From Roseateles violae (GTDB lineage Bacteria; Pseudomonadota; Gammaproteobacteria; Burkholderiales; Burkholderiaceae_C), in NCBI RefSeq assembly GCF_030410485.1, contig NZ_JAUHHC010000002.1, positions 248,001-312,000 of the forward strand: a DNA stretch of 64,000 nucleotides, given 5' to 3'. Numbering within the stretch: position 1 is the stretch's first letter; the number at the start of each line of letters is the position of its first letter. The position numbers and the translations under genes were made by a program. Below are positions 44,673 to 62,608 of this stretch, piece after piece. Under the pieces are notes generated by a model. The model worked only from the letters and a program-made list of their open reading frames with translations, was not told where the DNA came from and ran no database searches.

Positions 44673-44749
44673 AGGCGCGTAGCTCAGTTGGTTAGAGCAC
44701 CACCTTGACATGGTGGGGGTCGTTGGTTCGAATCCAATCGCGCCTACCA
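44673..44749 (+). tRNA. tRNA-Val (anticodon GAC)
   Basis: A 77-base cloverleaf: acceptor stem AGGCGCG pairing with CGCGCCT, D-arm with AGCTCAGTTGGTTAGAGC, anticodon stem CCACC/GGTGG with loop TTGACAT and anticodon GAC, T-arm with GGTTCGAATCC, discriminator A, and encoded CCA. It is the integration target of the adjacent element: the integrase gene runs into it from the other strand. Confidence 0.97.
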
Positions 44750-45969
44750 AATTCGGTAGGCAAAAAGCCCGATAGATCAGTGATCTGTCGGGCTTTTTCG
44801 TTTCCGGGTCCGACTGATGGGGCAGTCCGTGGGGCAGTCATTGCCTCGTTGAGCTTGGCTCGCTGGGTGCCGCCGTCGGCACCCGGGATCCATTTCGCGT
44901 ACTTGTCGATCAGCACCTTCACGTTGTGGCCGACCTGCGCGGCGATGTAGGCCGGCGTGACGCCGGCGATCAAGGCCGCCGTGCAGAAGGTATGGCGAGT
45001 GGCATAGGCGCGGCGATAGCGAATCCCGAGGCGGGCCAGGGTTGGCTTCCAGTAGGTGTCCCGCTGTGCGCGCTCGTCATGCCACGGCTTGCCGAGTTCC
45101 GGGTGTTCGAAGATCTCCGCATCCGTTCCGGGCTTGAAAGTGAACTGCATCATGACTGCGAGGGCGGCCATGGCGGCGTCCGGGATATCGACATCCCTGA
45201 CCACATGCGTTTTCGACCCGTCACGCTCCGATCCCTTGAACGTTCTTACCCGTTGGACGCGCGCAGTGCCTGTTTCGAAGTCGATGTCGCTCCATCGAAG
45301 GGCGATGATTTCTTCGGGACGCATACCAGTATGGAACGCCCAGTCGAAGTAGGCCCAGACCCGAATGTCGTAGTTCTCTGCAAAATCGCGCAAGACCCGG
45401 TCCCGCTCGGTGGGGGAAAGTGGATCAGGCAAGGTCCTGGTGGTCGCTCCGTTGGCAATGCCGATCATTGGGTTTTGAAACTTCAACGGACCGGGGTACT
45501 CGAGCTCGAAGATGCCTCTCAAAGGGATGAGGCAGTTGTTCATCAGCTTGCTGCTTGCCCATGGGTGCTTGCCAATCTTTGCTGCCAACTTGGCATGCGT
45601 CAGGTCGGCAATCGCGGTTTCTGGTCCCAGCAACGGTTTCCAGACATGGGTGACCGCATTGGTGTACTGAGACCGTGTCGCTGCGGTCAGTTTCCCGATG
45701 GAGTCGAGGTAGTCGGCGCACGCTTCAGCGAACGTTCGAGCCTTCGTGCCCGCTTTTCTGGCTCGGGAAGAGTTGGGGAATGTCTTCTCGTAGTCGAAGA
45801 TTCCTCGCTTGATCTCCCTCTCGATGCGGCGAAGCAGCACGTTGGCGATCTCGATGTTCTTGAGCGTGGGGGAGAGCCCCAGCGATTCGCGACACCGTTT
45901 CAGCTGGTAGTGAAACGTCACCCGAATGCTGTTCCCACGAACTTCTATTCCGCGCGGCAAGTCACCCAT
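44692..45969 (-). CDS. tyrosine recombinase (integrase), C-terminus read through the tRNA gene
   Basis: Site-specific recombinase of 425 residues as an open frame. N-terminal Arm-type region, SAM-like core-binding domain (about 75-165; FAEACADYLDSIGKLTAATRS), catalytic domain with Arg in TGMRPEEIIALRWSD, a Lys in the beta-hairpin, box II ATRHTF, VGH and the nucleophile Tyr in IDKYAKWI. The last residues (EKARQITDLSGFLP then DWIRTNDPHHVKVVL) come from the tRNA terminator and antisense tRNA-Val, and the stop codon lies inside the tRNA. This tail is a known signature of tRNA-integrated elements. Composition is AT-richer than the flanks. Confidence 0.92.
   Translation of the reverse strand: MGDLPRGIEVRGNSIRVTFHYQLKRCRESLGLSPTLKNIEIANVLLRRIEREIKRGIFDYEKTFPNSSRARKAGTKARTFAEACADYLDSIGKLTAATRSQYTNAVTHVWKPLLGPETAIADLTHAKLAAKIGKHPWASSKLMNNCLIPLRGIFELEYPGPLKFQNPMIGIANGATTRTLPDPLSPTERDRVLRDFAENYDIRVWAYFDWAFHTGMRPEEIIALRWSDIDFETGTARVQRVRTFKGSERDGSKTHVVRDVDIPDAAMAALAVMMQFTFKPGTDAEIFEHPELGKPWHDERAQRDTYWKPTLARLGIRYRRAYATRHTFCTAALIAGVTPAYIAAQVGHNVKVLIDKYAKWIPGADGGTQRAKLNEAMTAPRTAPSVGPGNEKARQITDLSGFLPTEFGRRDWIRTNDPHHVKVVL
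44762..44798. terminator. bidirectional rho-independent terminator of tRNA-Val
   Basis: An 18-base arm AAAAAGCCCGATAGATCA pairs with its downstream partner with one G-T wobble and ends in five T on both strands. On the plus strand it ends tRNA-Val transcription 13 bases after CCA. On the minus strand it lies inside the integrase reading frame, before the stop codon. Confidence 0.92.
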
Positions 45970-46139
45970 GATTCATACCACTCAACGTCTATGTGGATCC
46001 TCCCATCGGGAGAACGTCGGTACTCGCGGCCTTCGCGCCAGACGTGCTCCTCGATCTTTCGTCGCAACGCCTTTTCGGTGTAACCAGTGAGCTCGGCGAA
46101 CTTCTGCAGCAAGATAAATCTGACAGGTCGAGCATTCAT
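45945..46139 (-). CDS. excisionase-like small DNA-binding protein
   Basis: A 64-residue protein resembling recombination directionality factors: FILLQKFAELTGYTEKALRRKIEEHVW is a winged-helix start, here seen as FAELTGYTEKALRRKIE, followed by EGREYRRSPDGRIHIDVEWYESW, the wing with conserved tryptophan. It overlaps the integrase start by 25 bp, the usual int-xis arrangement. It would favour excision of the element. Confidence 0.78.
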   Translation of the reverse strand: MNARPVRFILLQKFAELTGYTEKALRRKIEEHVWREGREYRRSPDGRIHIDVEWYESWVTCRAE

Positions 46140-46721
46140 GACTGGGTGCCTCTTCGGTGCTCATCAGATAGTGGGACCTTGATGTCGCGTATCGCTCGGC
46201 GTTTCGGTGAACTGAAGCACTGAATCTGATACAGGTCGGCCCCATACTAGCCGGCGTCGGGTTGGAAAAAAGTCTTGCAATGCGGTGGAATTGACCGCCT
46301 TTGACGCCTCACGGCGTCGCCACAACTGGGCTCTGGACGCTTTGGACGGGCGGCTATGCGAGGGGAGGCGGTCCTAGCCCCGCACCGCGCCGCTCCAAGC
46401 CAGCGCCGCTTACCCTTCTATCCAACCTGCACCCCCGGTAAAGAGCATCGTCGCAAACGTCCGCTTAGGACTGAGCCGGTGCGAATGGCCGCGCGGACGG
46501 CCTTGCGGGCATCATGGGCATGTTGGCAGCGCCGCTGGTTGCGCACCTCACCATCCCGTCGGATGCGTGCGTGGAGGCTCGTCTTCCATGGGTTGGAGGA
46601 TGAACATAGGCCTAAGTAAGGTCTACAACGGTAGGCTGAAACAGGGTTGCCGAGCGCTCACAGGCCGGCGGCAAACTTCTTAGGCGCAATGTGAGGCCTG
46701 ACGGGCTGGAGGATGGTCCCG
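46140..46721. other. 582-bp stretch without a supported gene
   Basis: Between the excisionase-like gene and the first gene of the T6SS-linked region. It includes the int/xis upstream region and GC-mixed sequence. An open plus-strand frame at 46356-46619 has an Arg-rich, implausible product and no ribosome site. GGAGG at 46708-46712 serves the next gene. No repeat, tRNA or transposase remnant was recognised. Confidence 0.5.
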
Positions 46722-48404
46722 ATGCCACGAAGTGTGATGCTGGAGTTGACGATCGTCTGCCTTCTGCTTGCGGCGTCGGTGCCGGCCGCTGGTCAGATTG
46801 CGGGAGCGTGCCGCTTCGACGTGTCTTTACGACGATTTCAGGGGACTGACCTGCAGCAAGCGCAATGCCTGCTTCGTTCGGTGAAGCGATGGGGGAAGGT
46901 TGCAGCTGCTCCGGCCGTACTGCCCCCAGCGCTCGAGGCGCTGATCGGCAAGCCGGTGGGCTTTGGGCTTGAGCAGCTTAGAACGCTACTGGCTGCCTCC
47001 GGTCTCGATGAATCGGCTGTCGGTGGCAAGCTGAGCGCGCATGTTTCCGCTCGCTACTTCGTCATCCACGACACGAGTTCACCCTGGCTTGGCGACACGA
47101 GCTTTCCTGCCGACGACACGCCGGCATTGAACAATTTGGCGACCTACAGGAAGCCTGATGCGGTAGCGCATGTCTTCGTTAGCCGCACTGGTCAGACCTT
47201 GCTTGGGCACGACTTCAGCGAGCCATGGCGCGCCACTAAGCTTGAATCGACGGTGATAGGTCCACCCGCCAGTGGTCTTTTCCTGCACGTCGAGCTGCTG
47301 CAGCCGCGGCGCCGCGACCCAGCAGGTGGCCCCAAGAACGACGCGATGGCACCGATTCCGGGCTTCACGCCTGTGCAGTACGAGCGGCTGGCGCTGCTTT
47401 ATGCGGCCGCCAGCGCGCGCGCCGGTGCATGGCTGGTTCCCGCTATGCATGCGTCGATCGATGAGGGCCTGGTCGATGCGCATGACGACCCGCAGAACTT
47501 CGTGCTGGCCGACTTCGCATCGGCGCTGGAGCGTTTGCAGGCGGCGTTAACCGGCACCGTTTCTGAGCAGCCGCCCGCCTCGCAAGCATCAGACGCACCG
47601 GTTGCCGCTTCGTCAGCCGTGCCCGCATCTGAAGCCACGCCGGGAAGTCCGGGAGATCTTTGCGCCCCTATTGTCGCCGGACTTGCGCGCTTGACCGGCG
47701 GCGCTGAACTGCTGGCCTCCGGCAGTGGCAACAAGAGCTGGAAGTCTCTTTTCGACGAATGTGATCGGTCGGACCGTTTTGCTGGCCAAGCACTGCCCAC
47801 GCACGCGGGGAAGCCGTTGCGTTGCTCCACAGATCCCAACCGCGTGGCCTTCATCTCACGCTATGCCGATGGCACCGTGGTATTTCAAGCCAAGGCCTCG
47901 GTCGACGCCGATGGGTCGCCGGTGGTCGGCGGCAGCGGCTGGCCGAACGACGTTCAAACCTGGCTCACCTATGACAAAGGATCGAAGGACACCTTTGTCA
48001 ACGCAGAGGAAGTGCCGTTCATCGTTTTGCCGCTGCCGACCAAGGCTGCCGGCCTGTCATTGATGAAAGATATGCGCGTGGGCAAGGGCGATCTGGCAGT
48101 CGTAGTCAGCGGTGGACGCTGCACGTTCGGCGTGCTCGGTGACGCCGGACCGTGGTTCCGCCTGGGTGAGCTTTCCTTGCGCGCGCACGAGGAGATGGGC
48201 AACCCGCAATGCCGCATCCCCGGCGAACATCCGTGCAAGGGACTCAAGGGTGGCAGCGGGATCGGCATTGTCGAGGGCGTGACGTACATCGTCTTCCCGG
48301 GCACGCGGCCCAAGCCGCTGCTCAGCCAGACGGTGAACAAGGTTGTGCGCGAGCTGGCCACCGATAGGGCCCTGCGCTTCCTGCAGGCAAATACGAGACC
48401 GTAA
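46722..48404 (+). CDS. exported fusion of an amidase_2-like domain and a GH75 chitosanase-like domain
   Basis: A 560-residue protein from the ATG at 46722, nine bases after GGAGG, with a signal peptide (LELTIVCLLLAASVPAAG). The first half (about 100-285) looks like an N-acetylmuramoyl-L-alanine amidase/PGRP fold: YFVIHDTSSP (zinc His), AHVFVSRTGQTLLG, LHVELLQPRR, FTPVQYERLALLYAAA, and AMHASIDEGLVDAHDDPQNF. After a Ser/Ala/Pro linker (about 285-315) the second half resembles GH75: FQAKASVDADGSP, VPFIVLPLP, GDLAVVVSGGRCTFGVLGDAGP, RLGELSLRAHEEMG and YIVFPG, with candidate acids in DADG and GEL. Predicted to cut peptidoglycan in the periplasm or a target cell. Both assignments are from pattern recognition only. 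Confidence 0.68.
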   Translation: MPRSVMLELTIVCLLLAASVPAAGQIAGACRFDVSLRRFQGTDLQQAQCLLRSVKRWGKVAAAPAVLPPALEALIGKPVGFGLEQLRTLLAASGLDESAVGGKLSAHVSARYFVIHDTSSPWLGDTSFPADDTPALNNLATYRKPDAVAHVFVSRTGQTLLGHDFSEPWRATKLESTVIGPPASGLFLHVELLQPRRRDPAGGPKNDAMAPIPGFTPVQYERLALLYAAASARAGAWLVPAMHASIDEGLVDAHDDPQNFVLADFASALERLQAALTGTVSEQPPASQASDAPVAASSAVPASEATPGSPGDLCAPIVAGLARLTGGAELLASGSGNKSWKSLFDECDRSDRFAGQALPTHAGKPLRCSTDPNRVAFISRYADGTVVFQAKASVDADGSPVVGGSGWPNDVQTWLTYDKGSKDTFVNAEEVPFIVLPLPTKAAGLSLMKDMRVGKGDLAVVVSGGRCTFGVLGDAGPWFRLGELSLRAHEEMGNPQCRIPGEHPCKGLKGGSGIGIVEGVTYIVFPGTRPKPLLSQTVNKVVRELATDRALRFLQANTRP

Positions 48405-48568
48405 TCGACTACCGATCGAGTCGGCGGCTCTGCGGCAGAACTCGGCTCGTTGCAGACGGTCGCGAGCGACCGCTCGTGCGTCGCCTCTCCGCCGAGCCGA
48501 TGACCTAAGTCACGGTACGGTCAAGGGGCTCGCCAGTATCCTTTTCGCGTTCACCGGGAGAGTTGCAA

Positions 48569-49030
48569 GTGTCGGTCCTGTGCTGGAAAGTTGCCTTGGC
48601 TGCCGCGATTACGTTGGCTGGATGCGCTGGTCAACCGCCTGCGCCGGCCCAGGTTGTCGGGACCATTCAAGCCTCGACGCAGGTCAATCCAAGCGCTAGT
48701 AAGCGACCTTCTCCGTTGCTGGTTCGCATCTACGAGCTGAAGTCGGTGGCGGCTTTTAATAGCAGTGACTTCATGTCGCTGTATCAGCGCGACCAGGCGG
48801 AGCTGGCTGCCGACATGCTGGGGCGCGACGAGTTCGTGCTAGCGCCCGGCGAACAGAAGGCTTATGTCAAGACGCTGGCGGCGGAGACGCGATTCCTCGG
48901 CGTGGTAGCGGCCTTCCGCGACCTGGAGCATGCGAAATGGCGCACGGCGGTGGCGATACAGCCGGGGCAGAAGCAGCGTGTCTCGATCCAAGCGAGCGAA
49001 CTGTCCGTCGAGGCGGCGGTGAGCCGCTGA
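48569..49030 (+). CDS. tssJ: T6SS outer-membrane lipoprotein TssJ
   Basis: Lipoprotein of the TssJLM trans-envelope complex that contacts TssM in the periplasm. It has 153 residues from the GTG at 48569, six bases after GGGAGAG; a TTG at 48563 is too close to that site. Lipobox TLAGC with C19. The transthyretin-like domain shows LLVRIYELKSVAAFNSSDFMSLY and LAPGEQKAYVKTLAAETRFLGVVAAFRD. First gene of tssJ-tssK-tssL-tssM-tagF. Confidence 0.92.
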   Translation: MSVLCWKVALAAAITLAGCAGQPPAPAQVVGTIQASTQVNPSASKRPSPLLVRIYELKSVAAFNSSDFMSLYQRDQAELAADMLGRDEFVLAPGEQKAYVKTLAAETRFLGVVAAFRDLEHAKWRTAVAIQPGQKQRVSIQASELSVEAAVSR

Positions 49031-49033
49031 CCC

Positions 49034-50368
49034 ATGAGCTCAGCGGGCAGGGTACTGTGGTCGCAGGGCATGTTCCTGCTACCCCATCATTTCCAGCAGG
49101 AGGCAAGGCATTTCGAGTCGCTCGTCGATATGCGGCTGCGCGCTGGCGGCCCGCATAGCTGGGGATTTTTTGAGCTGGCGCTGGACGAGGGACTGTTGTC
49201 AACCGGCAAGCTGGGGCTGAGCCGTGCCAGCGGGATCTTGCCGGACGGCACGCCGTTCTCGATTCCGCAGCATGATGCCAAGCCGGCGCCGCTGGAGATA
49301 CCGGTGGACCTGAAGGACGAAATGGTCTACTTGGCCGTAGCGCTGGCGCGCGAAGGGGTGACACAGGTCTGCTTCGGCGACGAGGCGGCGCGCGAGGCCC
49401 TGCGCTGGCGCGCCGTCAACGAAGAATTGCGCGACCACACCAATGCCGCCGATGAGCCCGAAGCGGTGCAGACTGGCGCGTTGGAGCTGCGCCTTCTGCG
49501 TGCCAAGGAAACCGGGCCTGGTCAGGCACTGTTAGGGGTGGCGCGCGTGATCCAGCGTCGCAGCGACCGCCAGCTCGAGTTGGACCGCGACTACATTCCC
49601 CCGCAGACCCGCATTGATGCGAGCCAGCAACTGTCCGCTCAGGCGACCCTGCTACAGGGGCTCATCCATCAGCGCGCCAACGCCCTTGCTGGACGCATGG
49701 GACAACTCAGCCATGGTGTGTCCGAAATGGCTGACTTCTTGATGCTGCAGGCTTTGAACCGCGCGGAGCCGGTGTTCCGCCAGTATGCGCAGGCCCCCAG
49801 CGCGCATCCGCTGACGCTCTACCTGGCCTGTCTGCAACTCGCCGGTGACCTGGCGACATTTTCCAGCGATAACCGCTACCCACCCGAGTACCCGCTGTAC
49901 CACCACGAGGATCCGCGGAGTTGCTTCGCGCCGGTGGTCGCCGACCTGCGCCGCATGCTTTCCACCGTGCTGGAGCGCAACGCGGTACAGATCGAATTGA
50001 TCGATCGCAGCCACGGGGTTCGCATGGCGGTGTTCCCAGACGCCGAACTGGCCCGCCATGCCAGCTTCGTGCTGGCGGTCAACGCGCAGATGCCGGCCGA
50101 GCAACTGCGTACGCGCTTCCCTGCCCAGTCGAAGCTGGGGCCGGCGGAGCGGCTGCGTGATCTCGTCAACCTGCACTTGCCCGGCGTTGCCCTGCGCTCC
50201 CTGCCGACCGCGCCGCGCCAGCTGCCCTTCCATGCCGGCTTCCATTACTTCGAACTCGACCGGGGTGGCGAACTGTGGAAGCAGCTCGAGCGCAGCGGAA
50301 GCCTCGCATTGCATGTGGGGGCCGACTTTCCCGGCCTCGAACTCGAACTCTGGGCGATCCGGCAATGA
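49034..50368 (+). CDS. tssK: T6SS baseplate protein TssK
   Basis: Links the baseplate to the membrane complex. The protein has 444 residues, typical. Start signature VLWSQGMFLLPHHFQQEARHFE, then SWGFFELALDEGLL, the helical middle (ISYL-like MADFLMLQALNRAEPVFRQ) and a C-terminal head domain (HAGFHYFELDRGGELWKQL). Begins three bases after the tssJ stop, so transcribed and probably translated together with it. Confidence 0.95.
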   Translation: MSSAGRVLWSQGMFLLPHHFQQEARHFESLVDMRLRAGGPHSWGFFELALDEGLLSTGKLGLSRASGILPDGTPFSIPQHDAKPAPLEIPVDLKDEMVYLAVALAREGVTQVCFGDEAAREALRWRAVNEELRDHTNAADEPEAVQTGALELRLLRAKETGPGQALLGVARVIQRRSDRQLELDRDYIPPQTRIDASQQLSAQATLLQGLIHQRANALAGRMGQLSHGVSEMADFLMLQALNRAEPVFRQYAQAPSAHPLTLYLACLQLAGDLATFSSDNRYPPEYPLYHHEDPRSCFAPVVADLRRMLSTVLERNAVQIELIDRSHGVRMAVFPDAELARHASFVLAVNAQMPAEQLRTRFPAQSKLGPAERLRDLVNLHLPGVALRSLPTAPRQLPFHAGFHYFELDRGGELWKQLERSGSLALHVGADFPGLELELWAIRQ

Positions 50369-50386
50369 TCGAGCGAGGACCGGAAG

Positions 50387-51727
50387 ATGGACCCCTCCGC
50401 CCTCAACGACCCGTTCGCTGACCTGGACGACCAGCAGCGCACCTTCATCCGGCCCAGCCCTGGCGGACGCAATCCGGCTGCGCGTTCGGCCGAGCCGGCT
50501 GTCAGCGGCGAAGGCAGCCCTACCGAGCAGGCTGCGCCGGACGAGGGCCTGAATCCACTGGTCGCGCTGGCCAACCGGCTGCTGATGGCGGCGCCACAGT
50601 TGCGCGCGACCCGCCATGTCGACGACCCGGCGGCGCTACGCAATGCGCTGGCGCAAGGCATCCGCGACTTCGCCGCGCGTGCAGCAGCTCAGGGCATCAG
50701 CGCGGAGCGGGTGATGGCTGCGCGCTATGTGCTGTGCACGATGCTCGACGAGGCTGCAGCCGATACGCCCTGGGGCGGCTCGGGCCTGTGGGGACAGCAC
50801 AGCCTGCTGGCCGCCTTCCATAACGAGACCGAGGGCGGCGAGAAGGTGTTCCAGCTGATGGCACACCTGGCGGAGCATCCCGAGCAGAATCTTGACCTGC
50901 TGGAACTGATCTACGGCGCGCTGGTGCTTGGATTCGAGGGCCGCTACCGTGTCATCCCGAACGGCCGTGCTCAACTTGAGGCGGTGCGTGACAAGCTGGC
51001 CCAGATCATCCGCCGCCAGCGCGGCGACCACGCGGCGGCGCTGGCTCAACATTGGCAGGGCCAGCCGGCGCCTCCGCGAGGCTTGGCGAGCTGGCTGCCG
51101 CTGGCCGGTGCCGCGGCGCTGATGGCCTTGCTGCTGATGGGGACGTACCTGGCTCTGGCGTTCTCGTTGAGTGCACGCTCGGACCCCGTCTACGCCCAGA
51201 TCCAGGCCTTGCGGCTGACCCCGCCGCTGGTTGCAGCGCCGCAGGCGGCACCGAAGCCACGGCTCGCGCAGTTCCTGCAGTCCGACATCAAGGCGGGGCT
51301 GGTTTCGGTGCGCGACGAGGTCGATCGCAGCGTCGTGACGATCCGCGGCGATGGCGCTTTCGCGCCGGGCAGCGCTGCGCTGCTTTCCGAACGGGAAGAG
51401 CTGATGGGCCGGATCGCCGACGCTCTTGCCCAACTCGGCGGGCGTGTGCTGGTGACAGGGCATACCGACAGCCAGCCGATCGCACGCTCGGCGCGTTTCC
51501 CCTCGAACTGGCACCTCTCGGAAGCACGCGCCCGCACCGTTGGTGAGCTGCTGGTGGCGCGCCTGGTGAGCGCCGACCGGCTGCGCGTGGAGGGGCGCGC
51601 CGATGCCGAGCCGGTGGCGGGCAATGACAGCGCCGCCGGCCGGGCGCAGAACCGGCGCGTGGAGATCACGCTGTTCGTGGCCGGGCGCGGGAGCGAGGCG
51701 CCGGCCAGTCAGCCGGCGGGCTCATGA
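50387..51727 (+). CDS. tssL: T6SS inner-membrane protein TssL with C-terminal OmpA domain
   Basis: Component of the membrane complex, 446 residues. Disordered N-terminus with PFADLDDQQRTFIRP, a possible FHA/phospho-threonine site; cytoplasmic DotU domain (about 60-225; ARYVLCTMLDEAAADTPWG, LDLLELIYGALVLGFEGRYR), one TM (about 236-262), and a periplasmic OmpA-like domain (about 320-440; VLVTGHTDSQPIA, RARTVGELL, NRRVEITLF) that should bind peptidoglycan. This is the extended TssL form. Its stop overlaps the tssM start by 4 bp. Confidence 0.95.
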   Translation: MDPSALNDPFADLDDQQRTFIRPSPGGRNPAARSAEPAVSGEGSPTEQAAPDEGLNPLVALANRLLMAAPQLRATRHVDDPAALRNALAQGIRDFAARAAAQGISAERVMAARYVLCTMLDEAAADTPWGGSGLWGQHSLLAAFHNETEGGEKVFQLMAHLAEHPEQNLDLLELIYGALVLGFEGRYRVIPNGRAQLEAVRDKLAQIIRRQRGDHAAALAQHWQGQPAPPRGLASWLPLAGAAALMALLLMGTYLALAFSLSARSDPVYAQIQALRLTPPLVAAPQAAPKPRLAQFLQSDIKAGLVSVRDEVDRSVVTIRGDGAFAPGSAALLSEREELMGRIADALAQLGGRVLVTGHTDSQPIARSARFPSNWHLSEARARTVGELLVARLVSADRLRVEGRADAEPVAGNDSAAGRAQNRRVEITLFVAGRGSEAPASQPAGS

Positions 51728-54700
51728 TGGTGAAGAAGCTGCTGGGACTGGTGTTCAACCGCTGGGTACTGGCCGCCGCGCTGCTGCTGGCGCTGGCGCT
51801 GTCGATTTGGATCATCGGACCGCTCGTCGCGGTTGCAGACCGCCGCCCGCTCGAGACCGAGGCGGCCCGTTGGAACACGATCGGCGCGCTGGCACTGTTG
51901 ATGATCGTTGTCATTGCCTGGCGGCAATGGCGAGCGCGTCGCGGCAACGCGGCCGTGGTACAGCAGTTGCTGGCGGCACCAACCGGGCCGACGGCACCGC
52001 AGGAGAGTGCGGACCTGCAGGCGGTGCGCCAGCGCTTCGATCAGGCGCTGCAAACGCTGCGCCGCGCCCGTTTCGGTACAGGCGGCTTGCTGGCGGGCTG
52101 GTCGGCACGCTTCCAGGGGCGCTATCTTTACGAGTTGCCTTGGTACCTGATCATTGGCGCCCCTGGTTCCGGCAAGACCACGGCTCTGCAGAACTGCGGG
52201 TTGAAGTTTCCGCTTTCGCCGAATGCCGATGCGCAGGCGGTGCGTGGCGTGGGCGGCACGCGCAACTGCGACTGGTGGTTCACCGACCGCGCGGTGCTGA
52301 TCGACACCGCCGGGCGCTTTACCACACAGGATAGCGATCGCGACAACGACAGCGGCACCTGGGCCGGCTTCCTGGCGCTGCTCAGGCGCTCGCGACCGCG
52401 CCAGGCGCTCAACGGTGTGCTGGTGACGGTGTCGGTGCCCGATCTGCTGGCGCGAGACGTCGAAGGACGGCGCCTCTACGCAGCGGCCGTACGGCAGCGC
52501 CTGCAGGAACTGCATGAGGGCTTGTCGATCCGCTTCCCGGTCTATCTGCTCGTCACCAAGACCGATTTGCTGGCCGGTTTCATGGACTACTTCGCCACGC
52601 TGGACAAGGAGCAGCGGGCGGCGCCCTGGGGCATGACCTTTGGTGTGGAGGACGCGGGTTCGCTGCGTCAGCAGCGTTTCGGCCTCGAGTTCGATGCGCT
52701 GCAGCGGCGTCTGGTCGACGGCTTGGTCGAGCGCCTTCAGGCCGAGCCGGACTTGCTGCGGCGCGCACGCATCTATGGGTTCCCAGGGCAATTTGCCGGC
52801 GTTCGCGGACTGCTGCAGGAATTCCTCGAGTCGGTGTTCGCGCCATCGCCCTACGAGGCGGAGCCGCTGCTCAGAGGCGTCTACTTCATCAGCGGTACCC
52901 AGGAGGGAACGCCGATCGACCGCGTGCTTGGCAACATCGCGCGCAGTTACCGACTGGAGCGCGCCGTGATCGCGCCGAACCAGACCAGCGGCCGCAGCTA
53001 CTTCCTTACGCGGCTGGTTACCGAGGTGGTGCTGGCGGAGAGTGGGCTGGCCGGCACGAACCTGCAGTGGGAGCGGCGCCGGCGCCTCTTGGTGTCTGGC
53101 GGCTTTGCGGCACTGGTTCTACTAGGTGCTTGCACGCTTGGGGCCTGGACGCTCAGCTACCTGCACAACCGCAGCTATGTCGATGCGGTCGCGCAGGACG
53201 TAGAACGCGTGCGCGAACTGGTGCGCACGACGCCCAACCGCGCCTCGCCCGACCTGCTGCCGCTGGTGCCGTCTTTGGCCGCCACGCGGGGCCTGGCAGG
53301 CGGCACCGAAGGCGAATCGTGGCGGCTCGGCTTCGGTCTGAACCAAGGGCCCAAGCTCGACAGCGCCGCGCGGGCTGCCTACCAGCGCATGCTGGTCGAC
53401 GCCGTATTGCCGCGCCTGGGCCTGCGCGTCGAAGAACTGCTTCGCCAGGCCGGCAGTGCGCCGGACGGCGACTACGAGGCCTTGAAGGCCTATCTGATGC
53501 TGCACGATGCCGAGCACTTCGAGCCGGCGGCGCTGAAAGCCTATGTCGAGGCCGACTGGGACGCGCAATTGGGCCGCTCCCTGGACGGCCCGCGGCGGGC
53601 CCAGCTCAGCGAGCATCTGGATGCGCTGCTCACGCAGGGCGCGGCGGTCTCCCCCCTGGCGCCGGACCGCGCGCTGGTGGAGTTCCACCGCAACCGCCTG
53701 GCCGCGCTGAGTCTGCCGCAGCGCATCTACCGCCGGCTGCGCCACCAGGGCCTGGGCAACGAGTTTCCGGACTTCACCGTTGCGCGCGCGGCCGGCAGCA
53801 ACGCGGCGCTCGTTTTCGTGCGCGCCAGCGGTGCGCCGTTGAACGGCAAGGGCGTGCCGGGCCTGTTCTCCTACGATGGCTACCACCGCGGCTTTCAGAA
53901 GGAGGTACCGCGGGTGGCCCAGCAACTGGCCAAGGAGCAGCCCTGGGTGCTGGGCATCGCCGAGAACCAGAAGGGCATGGCTGTCGAACTCCGTGGCGAC
54001 GAACCGCTACTCGACGACGTGCGCCGGCTCTACCTGAACGAATACGCAACGACCTGGGAGGACTTCGTCGCGGATGTGCGCCTGCAGCCAATGACCAGCT
54101 TGGCGCAGTCGATTCAGATGGCGCGGCTGCTGTCCGCCCCCGACAGTCCGCTGCCGCCCTTGATGCGGGCGATGGTCCGCGAAACCACCCTGCTGGCGTC
54201 GGATGGCAAGAACCTGGTCGAGAAGACTACCGATCGCGCCACCGACATGCTGCGGCGCTCTCGCGAAGCGGTCGCCGAAGCAGTGACGGCGAAGAAGACC
54301 GAGTCCAAGGGGCCGCGCATAGAGAGCCTGGTGGACGACCGCTTCATCGGCTTGCGACGCATGGTGAGCGGACCCGAGGGCGGCAAGGCGCCGATGGACG
54401 ACACGCTGGCGCTGATTGGCGAGGCGCACATGATGCTCAACGCCGTGGACACTGCTGTCAGGGGTGGCTCGGCGCCGCCGCCATCGCCGGTGCCGCTGAA
54501 GCTCAAGGCCGAGGCGGCACGCTTGCCCGAGCCGCTGCGCGCGATGTTGGACAGCCTGTCGAATAGCAGCGCGCAGGTCTCGCAGATTATGGTTCGCCAG
54601 AATCTGGGCATGGAGGTGCGCTCGCAGGTCGGCGAGTTTTGTCAGCAGGCGGTTGCAGGTCGCTATCCGCTGGATCGCAATTCGGCGCGCGACGTCACCC

Positions 54701-55299
54701 AGGCCGACTTCGCGCTGCTGTTTGGGCCCGGCGGCAAGATCGACCAGCTGTTTCAGCAGAAGCTGGCGACCTATGTCGACACCACCACGCGGCCCTGGCG
54801 CTTCCGCGCGGTCGAAGGGGGTCCGCTGGGTGTCGACGGGGGCACGCTGCCGCAGTTTCAGCGCGCACAGGCGATCCGCGAGACGCTGTTCCCCGCCGGC
54901 AACGTGCCGTCCCTGCGGCTGCAGTTCAAGCCGGTCGAGATGGATGCCTCGCTGAAGCAGTTCATCCTCGACGTGGACGGCCAGATCGTGCGCTACGACC
55001 ACGGACCGCAAATCCCCGCAACGGTGCAGTGGCCGGGCCCGCGCGGCAGCTCGCAGGTGCGCGTGCAACTGAGCCCGCCGCTGGGCTCTGGCGCCTCCGG
55101 CATGGTTTACGACGGCCCGTGGGCGCTGTTCCGGCTGTTCGACCGCGTGCAGATCGAAGCCGGCGGTTCGCCCGAGCGCTTCCGCGCCACCTTCGATGTT
55201 GACGGCCGGAAGGCCGTCTTCGAGGTCGTCGCGAGCAGCGTTCGCAATCCATTCCGACTGCGCGAGCTGAGCGAATTCACCTGCCCCGCGGGGCTGTGA
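51724..55299 (+). CDS. tssM: T6SS inner-membrane protein TssM (IcmF)
   Basis: Large core of the membrane complex, 1191 residues. Two N-terminal TMs (about 15-38 and 53-66), a cytoplasmic NTPase-like domain with intact Walker A GAPGSGKT (145-152) and DTAGRF, a third TM (about 455-478), and a long periplasmic part with IcmF-related and C-terminal domains (GMVYDGPWALFRLFD, FRATFDVDGRKAVFEV). ATGA overlap with tssL. The tagF gene follows 10 bp later. Confidence 0.96.
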   Translation: MMVKKLLGLVFNRWVLAAALLLALALSIWIIGPLVAVADRRPLETEAARWNTIGALALLMIVVIAWRQWRARRGNAAVVQQLLAAPTGPTAPQESADLQAVRQRFDQALQTLRRARFGTGGLLAGWSARFQGRYLYELPWYLIIGAPGSGKTTALQNCGLKFPLSPNADAQAVRGVGGTRNCDWWFTDRAVLIDTAGRFTTQDSDRDNDSGTWAGFLALLRRSRPRQALNGVLVTVSVPDLLARDVEGRRLYAAAVRQRLQELHEGLSIRFPVYLLVTKTDLLAGFMDYFATLDKEQRAAPWGMTFGVEDAGSLRQQRFGLEFDALQRRLVDGLVERLQAEPDLLRRARIYGFPGQFAGVRGLLQEFLESVFAPSPYEAEPLLRGVYFISGTQEGTPIDRVLGNIARSYRLERAVIAPNQTSGRSYFLTRLVTEVVLAESGLAGTNLQWERRRRLLVSGGFAALVLLGACTLGAWTLSYLHNRSYVDAVAQDVERVRELVRTTPNRASPDLLPLVPSLAATRGLAGGTEGESWRLGFGLNQGPKLDSAARAAYQRMLVDAVLPRLGLRVEELLRQAGSAPDGDYEALKAYLMLHDAEHFEPAALKAYVEADWDAQLGRSLDGPRRAQLSEHLDALLTQGAAVSPLAPDRALVEFHRNRLAALSLPQRIYRRLRHQGLGNEFPDFTVARAAGSNAALVFVRASGAPLNGKGVPGLFSYDGYHRGFQKEVPRVAQQLAKEQPWVLGIAENQKGMAVELRGDEPLLDDVRRLYLNEYATTWEDFVADVRLQPMTSLAQSIQMARLLSAPDSPLPPLMRAMVRETTLLASDGKNLVEKTTDRATDMLRRSREAVAEAVTAKKTESKGPRIESLVDDRFIGLRRMVSGPEGGKAPMDDTLALIGEAHMMLNAVDTAVRGGSAPPPSPVPLKLKAEAARLPEPLRAMLDSLSNSSAQVSQIMVRQNLGMEVRSQVGEFCQQAVAGRYPLDRNSARDVTQADFALLFGPGGKIDQLFQQKLATYVDTTTRPWRFRAVEGGPLGVDGGTLPQFQRAQAIRETLFPAGNVPSLRLQFKPVEMDASLKQFILDVDGQIVRYDHGPQIPATVQWPGPRGSSQVRVQLSPPLGSGASGMVYDGPWALFRLFDRVQIEAGGSPERFRATFDVDGRKAVFEVVASSVRNPFRLRELSEFTCPAGL

Positions 55300-55309
55300 G
55301 GCAACGGGC

Positions 55310-55951
55310 ATGGAGGCGCCAGGCTGGTACGGCAAGCTGCTTGCGCTGGGAGATTTCGCGAGCCGGCGCCTGCCGCCCCACTGGATCAATGCCTGCGACG
55401 CCTGGCTGTCCGGGGCGCTGCGCGTTGCCGGCGCTCGGCTGGGCGAACGCTGGTTGGAGGTCTATCTCAGCGCTCCGATACTGCGCTTCGCTTGGGCCCC
55501 GGGTATCGTCGATGGCCAATGGTGGTTCGGCGTGTTGATGTGCAGCTGCGACCGGGTCGGACGCTACTACCCGCTCCTGATCGCGCAGCCGCGTCCGGCC
55601 CCACCGGCCGACGCTGCCGGACTCGAACATCTGGACGCTTGGTTTGCGCAGCTGAGTCAGGCGGCCCTGCAGACGCTCCACGACGATGGCTCTGTCGCGG
55701 CGTTGGAGCTGGCCTTGGAAGAGGCTCCGCCGTGGCCCGCCATGCCGGTGATGGGTCGAAACGCAATCGCATCGGATGCTGGGCTTGCCCGATGGTTGCC
55801 GGGCGTTGCCGCCGGCGAACTGGCCGCCCGCTTGAGCGGCCACTCTCTATGGTGGCGGACCGGCGGTGATCGTGCAGCAGTGCTATTCGACATCGTGCAG
55901 GGGCTGCCGGACGGCGCATGCTTTGCGGCGCTGCTGGGCGCCCAAGCCTAG
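55310..55951 (+). CDS. tagF: T6SS-associated protein TagF (ImpM)
   Basis: A 213-residue cytoplasmic protein of the TagF family: GWYGKLLALGDFASRRLPPHWINACDAWL at the start, cited as WYGKLLALGDFASRRLP, then FGVLMCSCDRVGRYYPLLIA and LWWRTGGDRAAVLFD. In Pseudomonas TagF represses T6SS posttranslationally, acting against the PpkA-Fha activating pathway; in Burkholderiales such proteins may be fused to PppA, here they are separate. Last gene of the plus-strand operon; ends on bases shared with the convergent pppA. Confidence 0.93.
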   Translation: MEAPGWYGKLLALGDFASRRLPPHWINACDAWLSGALRVAGARLGERWLEVYLSAPILRFAWAPGIVDGQWWFGVLMCSCDRVGRYYPLLIAQPRPAPPADAAGLEHLDAWFAQLSQAALQTLHDDGSVAALELALEEAPPWPAMPVMGRNAIASDAGLARWLPGVAAGELAARLSGHSLWWRTGGDRAAVLFDIVQGLPDGACFAALLGAQA

Positions 55952-56721
55952 TCGCGTTGCGGCCGGGTGACGTCACCGCGGTCACCGACCCAGACGGCGA
56001 TGGCGCTGAAGTTGTCTTGCTGTGCCGCGCCGACATGCTCAATTCGTTGCTGCATCGCGTCGAGCCACTCCTCCGGAGATGCGGCCTCTCCGAGCGTTTC
56101 AACTATCCCGGCGTCGTCGAGTGAACCCCACCACCCGTCGCTGCACAGCAGATAGACGTCTTCGTCCTGCAGTTGTGTTGGCTGAGCCAATGTGTGCGGA
56201 ACGACATCGCCGGACTTGCCTAATGCGGCCAACAGATGGTTGCGGTGGGGGTGGGCATCCGCCTGCTGCGGTGTGAGCAGACCCGCATCCAGCAAGCCCT
56301 GCACCACGCTGTCATCGTTGGTCAGCCTTCGCAGCAGCCCCTGGCGCACCCGGTACAGGCGCGAGTCTCCGACATGCGACCACAACGCAAGGTCACGGCT
56401 CGCGTCAATCCACAGTACGACCACCGTCGTGTGCATCTCGCACAATGCGACGTCGCGTTCCTGCTCATGGTGTAGCCGCGCGTGGGCGGCAAGCACCGCG
56501 TGCGTCAATGCGGCGGCGCCGAATTCGCGACCCTGCGCGAGCAGCGCCTGCTCGATCTCATCGACCGCATAGAGGGCCGCCGTCGCGCCCCCGCGATGTC
56601 CGCCGGCGCCATCGGCCAGCACCAGGGCCCAGGTCGGGCCTTCACGGCTCAGGCAGATGCGATCCTCGTTGTGCTCGCGGCTGCCGAGCTCGCTGCGCCC
56701 CGTGGCCGAGATGTTGAGCAT
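55948..56721 (-). CDS. pppA: PP2C-type protein phosphatase PppA of the T6SS
   Basis: A 257-residue Ser/Thr phosphatase that reverses PpkA phosphorylation of the FHA protein. Metal-binding motifs are present: SREHNEDRIC, VLADGAGGHRGG, WSHVGDSRLYRVRQG, TNDDSVVQGLL, LCSDGWWGSLDD and a final QQDNFSAIAV. The ATG at 56721 follows the tagH stop by 10 bp on the same strand. With tagF, tagH and ppkA in the window, the threonine-phosphorylation control circuit is complete. Confidence 0.93.
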   Translation of the reverse strand: MLNISATGRSELGSREHNEDRICLSREGPTWALVLADGAGGHRGGATAALYAVDEIEQALLAQGREFGAAALTHAVLAAHARLHHEQERDVALCEMHTTVVVLWIDASRDLALWSHVGDSRLYRVRQGLLRRLTNDDSVVQGLLDAGLLTPQQADAHPHRNHLLAALGKSGDVVPHTLAQPTQLQDEDVYLLCSDGWWGSLDDAGIVETLGEAASPEEWLDAMQQRIEHVGAAQQDNFSAIAVWVGDRGDVTRPQRD

Positions 56722-56731
56722 CGTGGCCCCG

Positions 56732-58243
56732 TCAGCGCGGTGTTTCGGCGCGGGGTCGCAGGCGCTCGAGTTGCTGCTGGTAAGCCGCCAGGAAGGCCTT
56801 GCCGAACAAGGTGTGGAAATCCTCTTGCGCGTCGTCGCGGATCGCCAAGTAGTGCTGGAGATAGAGCTCCCACAGTCTTGCCCGGCGGTTCATCGGCAGC
56901 AGGCTGTCCAGCACCGACTTGCCGGTCAGCTTGGCCTCCAGTTCGGTCGGGGCGAAACGGCCAAGGACGCCCTCCAGGGCGGCACGCATGCCGGCCATCG
57001 TGCCGATCGAGTGACCCAGCAGATCGTGCATCGCATCGTCCATCGCCTGGGCGCCGGCCATGAAGCCGCGCCTCGGTGGCTGCAACAGTTGTTCCAGCGC
57101 GGACTCTGCGTCCGGCGCGAACTTCAGCGGGTTGTTGTTCTGGGCCTGGATCATTGTCACCTGTGCATGCAGCTCCGACCGCGTGCTGGCGCGAACCGCC
57201 ATCAGCTGCAAAGTGCCGGCGGTGGCCGCGCGAAGAAGCTGCCCGACAGAGTGCATCAGGGCCGGCGATAGCTGCTCCGCAGGCAGCCGCACGCCGGTGC
57301 CGGCGCAGAAGGCCTCCCAGAGCTCTGCTGCATTGCCCGCGTCGAACGATGGCGTGGGCTCCGGCGTCGCGGCCTCCGGATCCGGGCCCGATGCCGGCCC
57401 GGGAGCCGTCATCGTCAGAGGCTTTGGTGGGCTGAAGGCCGCGTGCAATTCCGGCACATCGTCGGGCGGCAGTTCGGCGGGCGCGGTGCTCGGCGCTGCG
57501 CCCCCGAAAAGCGCGAGCGGATCGGTGGGCAAGGGCGGCGCAGCCTTGGCCATCGCCCCATCGCCGAGAAAATCGGCCAAACGGTCTCTGCCGCCGCTCG
57601 ACCGGAGATCGAACAAGGCATCGATCGAGACGGGCGTCTCTGAACCGGGCAATGGTAAGTCGGCTCGTGCTGGCGTTTTTGACGGTGCAGCCGGTGCTGC
57701 GGCTGCGAAAGGGTCGTAGTCGTCAGGCAGGCGCGACGTTCCCTCGTCCTCATAGGCGCTTGTTGCTGCGGATGGGCTGAGCAACTCGGCGAAAGGGTTG
57801 CTGCGGGACAGCGGTGTTCCGAGATCTCCCAGCGGCACTGGGACCGTGCCACCTCCGGAATTGGCGCCCCGAGCGGGGAGCGAGGGCAGGTCATGGACCG
57901 TGGCGGTCGTGTCCGCAGCAGCGAGAGCGTCGTCGACCACTTCCAGCAGGTAGCCGCCGATGCGCACCTGGTCGCTGTGCATCAGCGGCGCGGACTCTCC
58001 CTGTGCCAGCGCGTGATTGCGCACGAGGATGGGGTTGGCGCTGCCGATGTTGCGAATCACGTAGCCGCTGCGGCCGACCTTGATCTCTGCCTGCTGGCGT
58101 GAGATATGCCGTTCGGGGTCCGGCAAGGCCAGCGTGTTGTGATCGGCGCGGCCGATGGTCCCGCCTTGCTGATCGAAGCGTGCGGTGATCGGCTGCGTCA
58201 ACGGCCGGTCGTTGAGGGAGACGGCACGCAGGGTCAGGGCCAT
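56732..58243 (-). CDS. tagH: T6SS FHA-domain protein TagH (Fha)
   Basis: A 503-residue scaffold. The FHA domain (about 1-105) shows FDQQGGTIGRADHNTLALPD, HISRQQAEI and IRNIGSANPILV, the phosphothreonine-binding loops. A long disordered Ala/Pro linker (about 115-325) follows, then the C-terminal VI_FHA domain (GTGVRLPAEQLSPALMHSVGQLL, RSELHAQVTMIQAQNNNPLKF, LWELYLQHYLAIRDDAQEDF). The ATG at 58243 (MALTLRAVS) matches the usual N-terminus of the family; alternatives are ATG 58282 and TTG 58309, none with a Shine-Dalgarno. A 20-base motif shared with the next gene lies upstream. Confidence 0.9.
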   Translation of the reverse strand: MALTLRAVSLNDRPLTQPITARFDQQGGTIGRADHNTLALPDPERHISRQQAEIKVGRSGYVIRNIGSANPILVRNHALAQGESAPLMHSDQVRIGGYLLEVVDDALAAADTTATVHDLPSLPARGANSGGGTVPVPLGDLGTPLSRSNPFAELLSPSAATSAYEDEGTSRLPDDYDPFAAAAPAAPSKTPARADLPLPGSETPVSIDALFDLRSSGGRDRLADFLGDGAMAKAAPPLPTDPLALFGGAAPSTAPAELPPDDVPELHAAFSPPKPLTMTAPGPASGPDPEAATPEPTPSFDAGNAAELWEAFCAGTGVRLPAEQLSPALMHSVGQLLRAATAGTLQLMAVRASTRSELHAQVTMIQAQNNNPLKFAPDAESALEQLLQPPRRGFMAGAQAMDDAMHDLLGHSIGTMAGMRAALEGVLGRFAPTELEAKLTGKSVLDSLLPMNRRARLWELYLQHYLAIRDDAQEDFHTLFGKAFLAAYQQQLERLRPRAETPR

Positions 58244-58303
58244 GGGCGCGTTGGTCTGTATCGGGATGGGTGGCGCAGGCATATTCGCTGGGGCTTGAAG
58301 ATT

Positions 58304-58323
58304 CGGCAATGAACGAAAGTCAC
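58304..58323 (-). repeat. 20-base repeated motif upstream of tagH
   Basis: On the minus strand GTGACTTTCGTTCATTGCCG. It differs at one base from 59633-59652, which lies upstream of the neighbouring HEAT-repeat gene. It could be a shared regulatory site or the scar of a duplication that bracketed the gene between. Confidence 0.55.
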
Positions 58324-59534
58324 TGCGGCTTCAAGAGCCGTTGCTGGCGCCAGGCTGGCGCGGCGATGGGAAAGAGCGAGCGTCCCGGCTCGAGCAGGCA
58401 GATCAGTTGCGCGGCGACGCTGCGCTGGCGCTGTGTGCCCTCTCGCAGCACGTGTTGGCAGTGGGCCATGGTGGCGGTTGCACCCATGAAGCAGCGAATT
58501 CCCGTTGGGAGGCCGGCCGAGTGCGTTTGCCACCAGCGCCGAACGCGCTCCGGGTCGGGCCAGGGCAGGCTTTCGTCATCATCAAGCGCGACGTTCGCGT
58601 CGTCGGGATCATCGTTGGGCCCCGACTGCAGATCGGCAGGCGGTTTGCGCTCCAGGTCCAGGTCGGCGAGATCGGCGCCGGTGATCAGCGTGAAGGCCTC
58701 GCCCGCCTTGCGGGCAAGCACCTCGTCGGCCATCTGCTCGATCAGCCAGGGCACCGCGGTGGCGTCTCCCAGCAGCGCGGTAGCGCCGATCACGCGCCGC
58801 CGCAGCACGGCGTGCGGTTCCTGCGCGTGCGCGATGCGCCGAACAAATTCCCTACCGCGTGCGAAATCGATCGTCAGCAGCAGCAGGCGTTCCGCCGGGG
58901 CTTGCTCGGGGCCTTCACCAATCGCCAGCGACTCGAGCGTGGCCTCGGCCGCCCCGCGGCCGCCCAGCAGACAGGCACATTCGGCGGCCCTGAAGGCGAG
59001 CGCGGGATCTTCGTGTGCTTCAGCCAGGATCGCGCCTGCATATTGCAGCAGATCCCGTCGGCCCAGCGCGCCGGCCGCACGCAGCGCCGCGACGCGCAGC
59101 GCGGGCATGTCTTCGCCAAGCGCTGCGAGCAAGGGCGGGCCCGGGTCGACGGCATGCAGCCGGCAAGCCCCGATGGCCAGCTCTCGTCGCACCGCATCGC
59201 CTCCGAGCAAGGTGCGCACCAGGCCTCTCAGCGATGGCGCGCTGACCCAGCCCAAGGCCGACAGCAAGCCGCGCCGGGCGTCAGGCAGCGCCGCGGCGAT
59301 GGCAATCAGTCGCTGCAGCGCCGTTTCGTCGCGCTCATCGATCAGACGCACCGCCAGCGCAAACACCTCGCCGGCGCCCGGGCGCTCCAAGGCTTCGGTG
59401 CAAAGCCGCGTTCCGTAGCTGCCGGCCACTGCCAGGCCGTCCAGGTGTGCGGCGATGCGCTCGTCCAGCCGTGCCAGGTGGCGCAAGCGCACATGCGGTG
59501 CGCGCGCCAGCACCGAGCGGATATGCCGGAGCAT
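58320..59534 (-). CDS. T6SS-associated HEAT-repeat protein, TIGR02270-like
   Basis: A 404-residue cytoplasmic protein of helical repeats rich in Leu/Ala (for example LRVAALRAAGALGRRDLL and FRAAECACLLGGRGAAEATLESLA), with a later FTLITGADLADLDLE and PWPDPERVRRWW, which match the TIGR02270 family found in some T6SS loci. The ATG at 59534 is preceded by GGAGGAA with good spacing and is preferred over the ATG at 59600. Role unknown; HEAT repeats suggest a protein-binding adaptor. Upstream lies the second copy of the 20-base motif. Confidence 0.78.
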   Translation of the reverse strand: MLRHIRSVLARAPHVRLRHLARLDERIAAHLDGLAVAGSYGTRLCTEALERPGAGEVFALAVRLIDERDETALQRLIAIAAALPDARRGLLSALGWVSAPSLRGLVRTLLGGDAVRRELAIGACRLHAVDPGPPLLAALGEDMPALRVAALRAAGALGRRDLLQYAGAILAEAHEDPALAFRAAECACLLGGRGAAEATLESLAIGEGPEQAPAERLLLLTIDFARGREFVRRIAHAQEPHAVLRRRVIGATALLGDATAVPWLIEQMADEVLARKAGEAFTLITGADLADLDLERKPPADLQSGPNDDPDDANVALDDDESLPWPDPERVRRWWQTHSAGLPTGIRCFMGATATMAHCQHVLREGTQRQRSVAAQLICLLEPGRSLFPIAAPAWRQQRLLKPQ

Positions 59535-59632
59535 GGCGCTTTCCTCCGCATGTTGATGGACGACAACGGGTATTGGCGGGCGTTCAAAGGGCGGCTTCAT
59601 CGTCTGTGACGATGCCCGGCACCGACTGGCCC

Positions 59633-59652
59633 CGGCAATAAACGAAAGTCAC
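59633..59652 (-). repeat. 20-base repeated motif upstream of the TIGR02270-like gene
   Basis: On the minus strand GTGACTTTCGTTTATTGCCG, 19 of 20 identical to 58304-58323. It lies about 100 bases before the start of the HEAT-repeat gene and 64 bases before the divergent LysM gene. Confidence 0.55.
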
Positions 59653-59716
59653 GCACCTTAGTCCTGCGTCTGAGGGACACTTTCCGACATCGATCTTGTG
59701 CGAGGCGCATTCACGC

Positions 59717-60655
59717 ATGCCTGCGATGACTCATCCAGAAATGCCTACCGTGCCGCCCGGGCAGCGGCCGCGGTCCTGCTATGGCTTGGCGCTGTTGCTC
59801 GCCGCTTGCGCCCAAGCCCCAACACGGCCACCGCCCGCACCGCCGTCGGTGCCAGCGGCTGTTACCGAGATCCCAGAGCCTCCTCCGAGTCCCCCCCCCG
59901 CACCCGCGCCGGCCAGCCCGGCCTCGCAGCAGCAGGCCGGCAAGATTGCAATGACTGCGGTCGGACTGCTGGAATCGGGGCAAATGGAGCAGGCCAAGGC
60001 AGAACTGCAACGGGCCTTGTCCGCCGATCCTGCCAACAAGCTGGCGCAAAGCCTGATGCGTCAGATCACCGTCGATCCAGTTGCCGCGCTGGGCCGCGAG
60101 TCATTCAGCTATACGGTGCGACCCAACGACACGATGTCCTCCATTGCCGGTCGCTTCCTCGGAGATATCTACGCCTTCTACATCCTGGCACGCTACAACA
60201 ACATCAGCGTGCCGCGCCAATTGGCTGGTGGCCAGGTGATTCGCATTCCTGGCAAGGCACCTCCGCCTGCGTCGCCGGCCGCTCCTGCGCCTGTGGCAGC
60301 GGCTCCTGCAGCGCCAGCCACTACGTCCGCGACCGCTCCGGATTCTGGTGCTGGCGAGCGTGCAATGCGCGCCGCCGAGGCGGCGGAGCGTGCCGGCAAG
60401 CCGCAGCAGGCCTATACGGAATACCGCAAGGCGGCGAGTCTCGGTCAAGCCGGTGCGGAGGCCAAGGCTGAGGAACTGCGTCGTCAGATGGTGCAGCGCT
60501 TGTCGCTGAACGCGCGCACCGCCTTTGCCAAGCAGGATCTGGACGGCGCGATCCGCGCGTGGGAGCAGGTCCTGGAACTGGACCCTGCCAACGACACTGC
60601 CAGGTCAGAGCGTCAGCGCGCGTTGAACCTGAAGGAAAAGGTCAAGAAGCTCTGA
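59717..60655 (+). CDS. LysM-domain lipoprotein with TPR-like C-terminus
   Basis: A 312-residue lipoprotein: lipobox LLAAC, a Pro-rich linker, a TPR-like helix pair (about 75-115; ESGQMEQAKAELQRALSADP), a LysM domain (about 130-180; YTVRPNDTMSSIAGRFLGD, then AGGQVIRIPGK), an Ala/Pro linker and a second TPR region (about 215-312; AFAKQDLDGAIRAWEQVLELDP). LysM predicts peptidoglycan binding from the outer-membrane side. The start among ATG 59717 and 59726 is uncertain and lacks a Shine-Dalgarno. It lies alone on the plus strand among minus-strand T6SS genes. Confidence 0.82.
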   Translation: MPAMTHPEMPTVPPGQRPRSCYGLALLLAACAQAPTRPPPAPPSVPAAVTEIPEPPPSPPPAPAPASPASQQQAGKIAMTAVGLLESGQMEQAKAELQRALSADPANKLAQSLMRQITVDPVAALGRESFSYTVRPNDTMSSIAGRFLGDIYAFYILARYNNISVPRQLAGGQVIRIPGKAPPPASPAAPAPVAAAPAAPATTSATAPDSGAGERAMRAAEAAERAGKPQQAYTEYRKAASLGQAGAEAKAEELRRQMVQRLSLNARTAFAKQDLDGAIRAWEQVLELDPANDTARSERQRALNLKEKVKKL

Positions 60656-60670
60656 TCGCTGGTGGCTGCG

Positions 60671-62598: not shown

Positions 62599-62608
62599 TG
62601 CGCGGGCC

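Follow-up and report, generated by a model that had tools for sequence, protein, structure and literature searches.

An open reading frame of Roseateles violae that lies directly upstream of a T6SS gene cluster joins, in one exported protein, an AmpD/AmiD-like zinc amidase domain (the N-half) and a GH75 domain (the C-half). On balance we favour the view that the product is a Sec-exported, two-step bifunctional wall hydrolase, which would have arisen from two neighbouring genes for exported enzymes and would be cargo of a genomic island, not a T6SS effector; this view draws on comparisons of sequence and of gene order. The features of the locus, numbered within the 64,000-nucleotide stretch of DNA that was analysed (henceforth referred to as the window), are collected in Table 1. 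The frame of 560 amino acids is intact from the ATG at 46722 to the stop at 48404 on the + strand, and the Shine-Dalgarno sequence GGAGG is found at 46708-46712, 9 nt 5' of this ATG. Since a second in-frame ATG, at 46713, directly abuts the GGAGG, we preferred 46722 as the start. A frameshift or a chance ORF was ruled out, as the frame is long and conserved and its active sites are intact. All the motifs quoted in an earlier note on this DNA (IHDTSS, MHASID, DDPQNF, DADG, GDAGP and GELS) were present in the translation, and the export claimed there is supported by the N-terminus, which reads by eye as a signal peptide of the Sec type (MPRSVMLELTIVCLLLAASVPAAG followed by Q). Among the sequences found, the window gene was the sole full-length fusion of amidase and GH75 in a single ORF.

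Table 1. Coordinates in the window of the fusion gene, its domains and residues, the adjoining T6SS genes and the left end of the island.
Feature	Position	Strand	Basis
Fusion gene, exported AmpD-like amidase + GH75, 560 aa	46722..48404	+	ORF, Shine-Dalgarno
Signal peptide (putative), approx. aa 1-25	46722..46796	+	hydrophobic core LTIVCLLLAASVPAAG; Caballeronia homologues of both halves begin alike
N-half, AmpD/AmiD-like zinc amidase domain, aa 28-276	46803..47549	+	invariant residues, hhalign, AlphaFold/Foldseek
N-half residues	H116 47067; E191 47292; H243 47448; H254 47481; D256 47487	+	invariant in 28/28 relatives
A/P/S-rich linker, aa 277-308 (32 aa)	47550..47645	+	comparison with Caballeronia pair
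C-half, GH75 (predicted double-psi beta-barrel glycanase)	47646..48401	+	PF07335, V-Csn matches, acidic residues
C-half acidic residues	D395 47904; D397 47910; D474 48141; E483 48168	+	V-Csn D34/D36/D148/E157 equivalents
tssJ	48563..49030	+	TIGR03352 / PF12790
tssK	49034..50368	+	TIGR03353
tssL, OmpA-type	50387..51727	+	TIGR03350 / NF005444
tssM	51724..55299	+	TIGR03348
tagF-like	55310..55951	+	PF09867
tRNA-Val (GAC), island insertion site	44673..44749	+	ARAGORN
Tyrosine recombinase, island integrase	44692..45969	-	PF00589, PF12167
Left att direct repeat, 144 bp	44724..44867		138 identical to second copy

Relatives of the N-half were found by genome scan at 46 loci, nearly all of them matching residues ~5-300 only, and are mostly stand-alone exported proteins of about 280-320 amino acids. 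Their hosts include Novosphingobium and other Sphingomonadaceae, Pyrinomonadaceae/Acidobacteriota, Cytophagales, Pseudomonas and others, and within the order to which R. violae belongs the domain is present in at least one of 399 genomes. In an alignment of 28 family members the residues H116, H150, H189, E191, H243, H254, D255 and D256 were invariant. The earlier note had placed this half in the Pfam family Amidase_2 (PF01510), which held for the fold and for much of the family: the window copy itself had no match and so falls below the Pfam cut-off, a Caballeronia homologue was matched weakly (18.3 bits), and 17 of the 28 members were matched at E<=1 (best E 8.6e-6). Comparison of the N-half with AmpD/AmiD by hhalign, in which the AmpD/AmiD side consisted of proteins from R. 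violae and related genomes, gave E=8.1e-6 over residues 112-268 and set H116, E191, H243 and D256 on what we take, from general knowledge, to be the zinc ligands and the catalytic glutamate of AmpD. The AlphaFold model of the N-half was confident (pLDDT 89.4), and Foldseek ranks 1-18 among PDB entries were taken by AmpD, AmiD, AmpDh2/3, PGRP and endolysin amidases alone (best E 5.6e-4); PDB sequence searches with the full protein or with N-half profiles returned nothing useful. Judged by profiles and model, the N-half has the Amidase_2 fold but belongs to a divergent family and lies below Pfam's own threshold; its mechanism is predicted to be AmpD-like. It resembles the N-acetylmuramoyl-L-alanine amidases AmpD, AmiD and AmpDh2 (PF01510) in fold and in the predicted residues H116, H243, D256 and E191, but differs from AmpD in its divergent sequence, in ~80 additional N-terminal residues, in the fused GH75 domain and in having H254 where AmpD has Lys, two residues ahead of the last zinc ligand.

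Several members of the amidase family occur in other settings. In a Pyrinomonadaceae protein (L038:9893-11542) the same amidase domain is fused to a 3D domain (PF06725), another pairing of this amidase, here with a domain that may be of the barrel type and cut glycan. On a plasmid of Cupriavidus taiwanensis (L049:8567-10561) a protein ends in the amidase domain, and its first 445 amino acids match PDC-M68B, a candidate defence protein of the ABC-three-component type; the plasmid protein looks like a recombination chimera and its gene is followed by a DUF2272 gene. A further member, on a viral contig (L053:1626-2879), stands between phage-structural-looking genes, has a weak endolysin match (phrog_880, E 0.055) and is possibly a phage lysis enzyme. 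None of the phage records in INPHARED encodes the window protein.

The second domain claimed in the earlier note, GH75, was borne out by profiles and conserved residues, and the two-domain architecture stands with it. PF07335 matched the C-half with E=7.4e-5 and 23.5 bits, under its 27-bit cut-off, and matched the Caballeronia homologue, which is 48% identical to the C-half, over that cut-off (E=1.4e-7, 32.3 bits). A hmmsearch with a two-sequence profile of the C-half found V-Csn at 1e-5, and the top five Foldseek hits were V-Csn entries (E 3.8e-6), for a model with a mean pLDDT of only 64.4 and a V-Csn-like sequence in its alignment. D395, D397, D474 and E483 and the flanking glycines were invariant in our GH75 alignments; four acidic residues and two glycines are the only universally conserved residues of GH75, and in V-Csn activity drops five-fold with D148N and is nearly lost with E157Q (PMC9485262). 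On sequence grounds, the C-half is a member of GH75 with a predicted activity. Its best match in sequence and modelled fold, V-Csn and other GH75 chitosanases (7TVL-7TVP, PF07335), shares the four acidic residues and flanking glycines with it, whereas V-Csn is a stand-alone protein of soil-virus origin and the C-half, at about 20% identity, has six cysteines and is fused to an amidase. The distribution of the C-half is rare: GH75-like weak matches occurred in at least 2 of 401 genomes of the R. violae family (its own genome not counted) and C-half matches in at least 4 of 300 genomes of the Caballeronia family, counts that are lower bounds from about 1,100 genomes sampled, with part of the candidates scored. 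Scans of IMG/VR with close C-half queries found no relatives, and a broader GH75 alignment found nine there. Two further GH75 genes were observed: a truncated fragment (L152:7434-7973) that directly adjoins a CBASS-type cyclase and phospholipase effector, which suggests that such genes travel in defence or integration hotspots, and, in another genus of the Burkholderiaceae, a GH75 gene for an exported stand-alone protein (L151:6552-9463), located between two exported or lipoprotein-like genes without assigned function.

The two halves also occur as separate genes. On plasmid p1 of Caballeronia insecticola (NC_021289.1, from 277521) an amidase gene and a GH75 gene are adjacent and 11 nt apart: the former ends with its stop at L048:15888, and the latter begins with an ATG at 15900. 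They are 39% (amidase) and 48% (GH75) identical to the window protein in the same order; the pair differs from the window gene in comprising two genes, each with its own signal peptide, in being followed by a third gene for an exported protein and in having no T6SS nearby. The same three-gene order was present in a second Caballeronia genome, with identities to C. insecticola of 91% for the amidase and 88% for the third gene. A split caused by sequencing error was ruled out, because the gene after the stop has a signal peptide of its own and the order is repeated in the second genome. A locus for a branched-chain amino-acid ABC transporter adjoins the Caballeronia operon, and no T6SS genes were found near it. 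The third exported protein, of ~350 amino acids (L048:16745-17794 and L150:6580-8160), had no match in Pfam, NCBIfam, PHROGs or PDB and is possibly another wall hydrolase. In the window protein the 32-amino-acid linker stands where the split form has the gene junction and the second signal peptide. Read from this comparison, without a tree, it would be simpler for a split ancestor to have become fused than the reverse. A shared function of the halves is supported because they are fused here and encoded by neighbouring genes elsewhere.

The earlier note placed the gene at the head of a T6SS operon, of which only the position was confirmed: the fusion gene precedes tssJ by 158 nt on a common strand and is at the edge of an island marked by integrase, tRNA-Val and att repeats. 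The stretch between it and the integrase holds no convincing gene, which leaves the fusion gene as the first such gene to follow the integrase; its neighbour on the other side is tssJ. The left att repeat starts in the 3' end of tRNA-Val and its second copy, at which there is no whole tRNA, lies ~56.9 kb downstream and outside the window (G000:C8:349575-349717). Synteny of relA and tRNA-Val, which are adjacent at the window locus and in 14 of 17 relatives scanned (own genome not counted), served as evidence for the insertion site; a uridine-kinase gene beyond the right att repeat was dropped as an empty-site marker because it is not beside tRNA-Val in the relatives. The GC content of relA was 70.3%, that of the fusion gene and of tssJ 63%, and that of tssK, tssL and tssM 66-71%. 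As tRNA, recombinase and att repeats bound both, we place the T6SS and the fusion gene on one tRNA-Val island, and the position of the gene before tssJ may be incidental. The ~56.9-kb island (44724-64000 and G000:C8:312001-349717) carries a whole T6SS, including vgrG (~21 kb downstream of the fusion gene), a clpV-like gene, tssF, hcp, tssC and tssB; also present are Ser/Thr kinase and PP2C phosphatase genes, a DUF1173 gene and, near the far end, two further integrase-like genes.

A dedicated accessory role for the T6SS is an unlikely explanation, in our estimate. The enzyme would open the producer's own peptidoglycan for TssJLM, like TagX of Acinetobacter or MltE of enteroaggregative E. coli, and its gene would have become the first of the cluster. 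Wall-opening enzymes of T6SSs are known (PMC10433429), and export, the strand and distance of tssJ and a GC content close to that of tssJ (0.63) all fit the TssJLM-assembly role put forward in the earlier note. The linkage expected under that role is not conserved: BLAST with ten T6SS proteins found no T6SS genes at any of the 46 N-half loci (flanks up to 10 kb, some contigs being short), the Caballeronia pairs are away from T6SS genes, related T6SS clusters have no such gene next to or upstream of tssJ/tssK, and the sphingomonad copies, read by eye, adjoin rimM/trmD/rplS-type genes. Moreover, adjacency to the integrase offers another explanation for the position. The fusion protein resembles TagX and MltE in its possible role by position and in a predicted periplasmic location, but not in enzyme families or in conserved T6SS linkage. 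MltE is a housekeeping enzyme, so that the missing linkage makes a wall-opening role less probable and no more than that.

Under the favoured reading of an exported two-step hydrolase, the N-half, with H116, H243 and D256 as predicted ligands and E191 as predicted catalytic residue, would take stem peptides off MurNAc. The C-half, as a putative double-psi-barrel inverting glycanase with E483 as predicted proton donor and with D395, D397 and D474 predicted to hold glucosamine and activate water, would next cut the bared, perhaps de-N-acetylated glycan, the likely order being amidase first. The protein would work extracellularly or in the periplasm of the cell that makes it, and would not be loaded from the cytosol as T6SS cargo. 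Homology and gene order show the two domains with their catalytic residues, the relation to a split operon and the setting on an island, from which we infer activity, substrate, order of cuts and location, and the earlier claim that one protein attacks both the peptide linkage and the glycan is supported as a prediction. C30 and C49 are kept in 27 of 28 N-half members and lost together in the remaining one, and six cysteines are common to both close GH75 copies; the conserved cysteines and the signal peptide argue for an oxidising compartment. Glycan denuded by amidases is bound by the SPOR domain of RlpA (PMC6895207) and cleaved by DigH (PMC12288456), and in E. coli SddA de-N-acetylates denuded strands, yielding GlcN (PMC12440217). 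De-N-acetylation of the SddA type would thus create the glucosamine that the acidic residues of GH75 bind. From this we infer that the GH75 half could use denuded strands, with chitosan as a possible alternative. A more specific reading, which we put forward with low confidence, is that GH75 has here been co-opted for peptidoglycan, where it would cut amidase-denuded, de-N-acetylated strands, so that one polypeptide would first denude and then cleave the glycan in a new way. Several points speak against the exported two-step hydrolase: there is a single fused example, GH75 enzymes are known on chitosan and not on peptidoglycan, the N-half misses the Amidase_2 cut-off, the C-half model is of low confidence, and with the linker between them each half could have a substrate unrelated to that of the other.

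We regard as doubtful the reading of an enzyme that is secreted for scavenging or against competitors and has two substrates, in which GH75 would act on chitosan of fungal walls and the amidase on bacterial walls, and a second-step secretion system would release it. To date GH75 enzymes are known to act on chitosan, and GH75 recognises glucosamine (PMC9485262); the C-half keeps the four acidic residues, the glucosamine-binding ones included, and the signal peptide, disulphide-type cysteines and place as mobile-island cargo fit as well. However, no carbohydrate-binding domain or other extracellular marker was seen, most N-half relatives are stand-alone amidases, and the joining of the halves in one chain points to a common substrate.

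That the protein is a T6SS effector with a pair of toxic domains is highly improbable. In favour of it are the adjoining T6SS and the presence of two domains directed at the wall, which TseP (PMC11893102) and some effectors of the WHIX type (PMC12135965) have as well; against it are the N-terminal signal peptide, the conserved cysteines in both halves, the absence of PAAR, VgrG, Hcp or another effector marker domain by Pfam and NCBIfam, the lack of an adjacent immunity gene candidate, the distance to vgrG and the N-half relatives without T6SS linkage. TseP, a dual amidase-lysozyme effector, is delivered on VgrG2 and comes with an immunity protein (PMC11893102); the fusion protein is like it in combining an amidase and a glycan-cutting domain, and unlike it in having a signal peptide, no immunity candidate and GH75 instead of lysozyme. 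Amidase and glycan-cutting activity in one protein is therefore already known, and it is the pairing of amidase and GH75 that is apparently undescribed: in agreement with the earlier note, we found none in the open-access literature, judged by title.

Overall, the locus cautions that a gene beside a T6SS cluster is not automatically an effector gene, as here the neighbour may be island cargo. The N-half defines a divergent, widespread family of exported amidases in Sphingomonadaceae, Acidobacteriota and others that is mostly missed by Pfam. The amidase-GH75 fusion and the neighbouring genes in Caballeronia suggest peptidoglycan as the substrate of some GH75 enzymes in bacteria, and the fusion protein offers a ready two-domain enzyme for testing GH75 on this substrate. 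If GH75 does act on denuded peptidoglycan, it would be the first enzyme of its family with the bacterial wall as substrate, and RlpA would have a hydrolytic counterpart in it.
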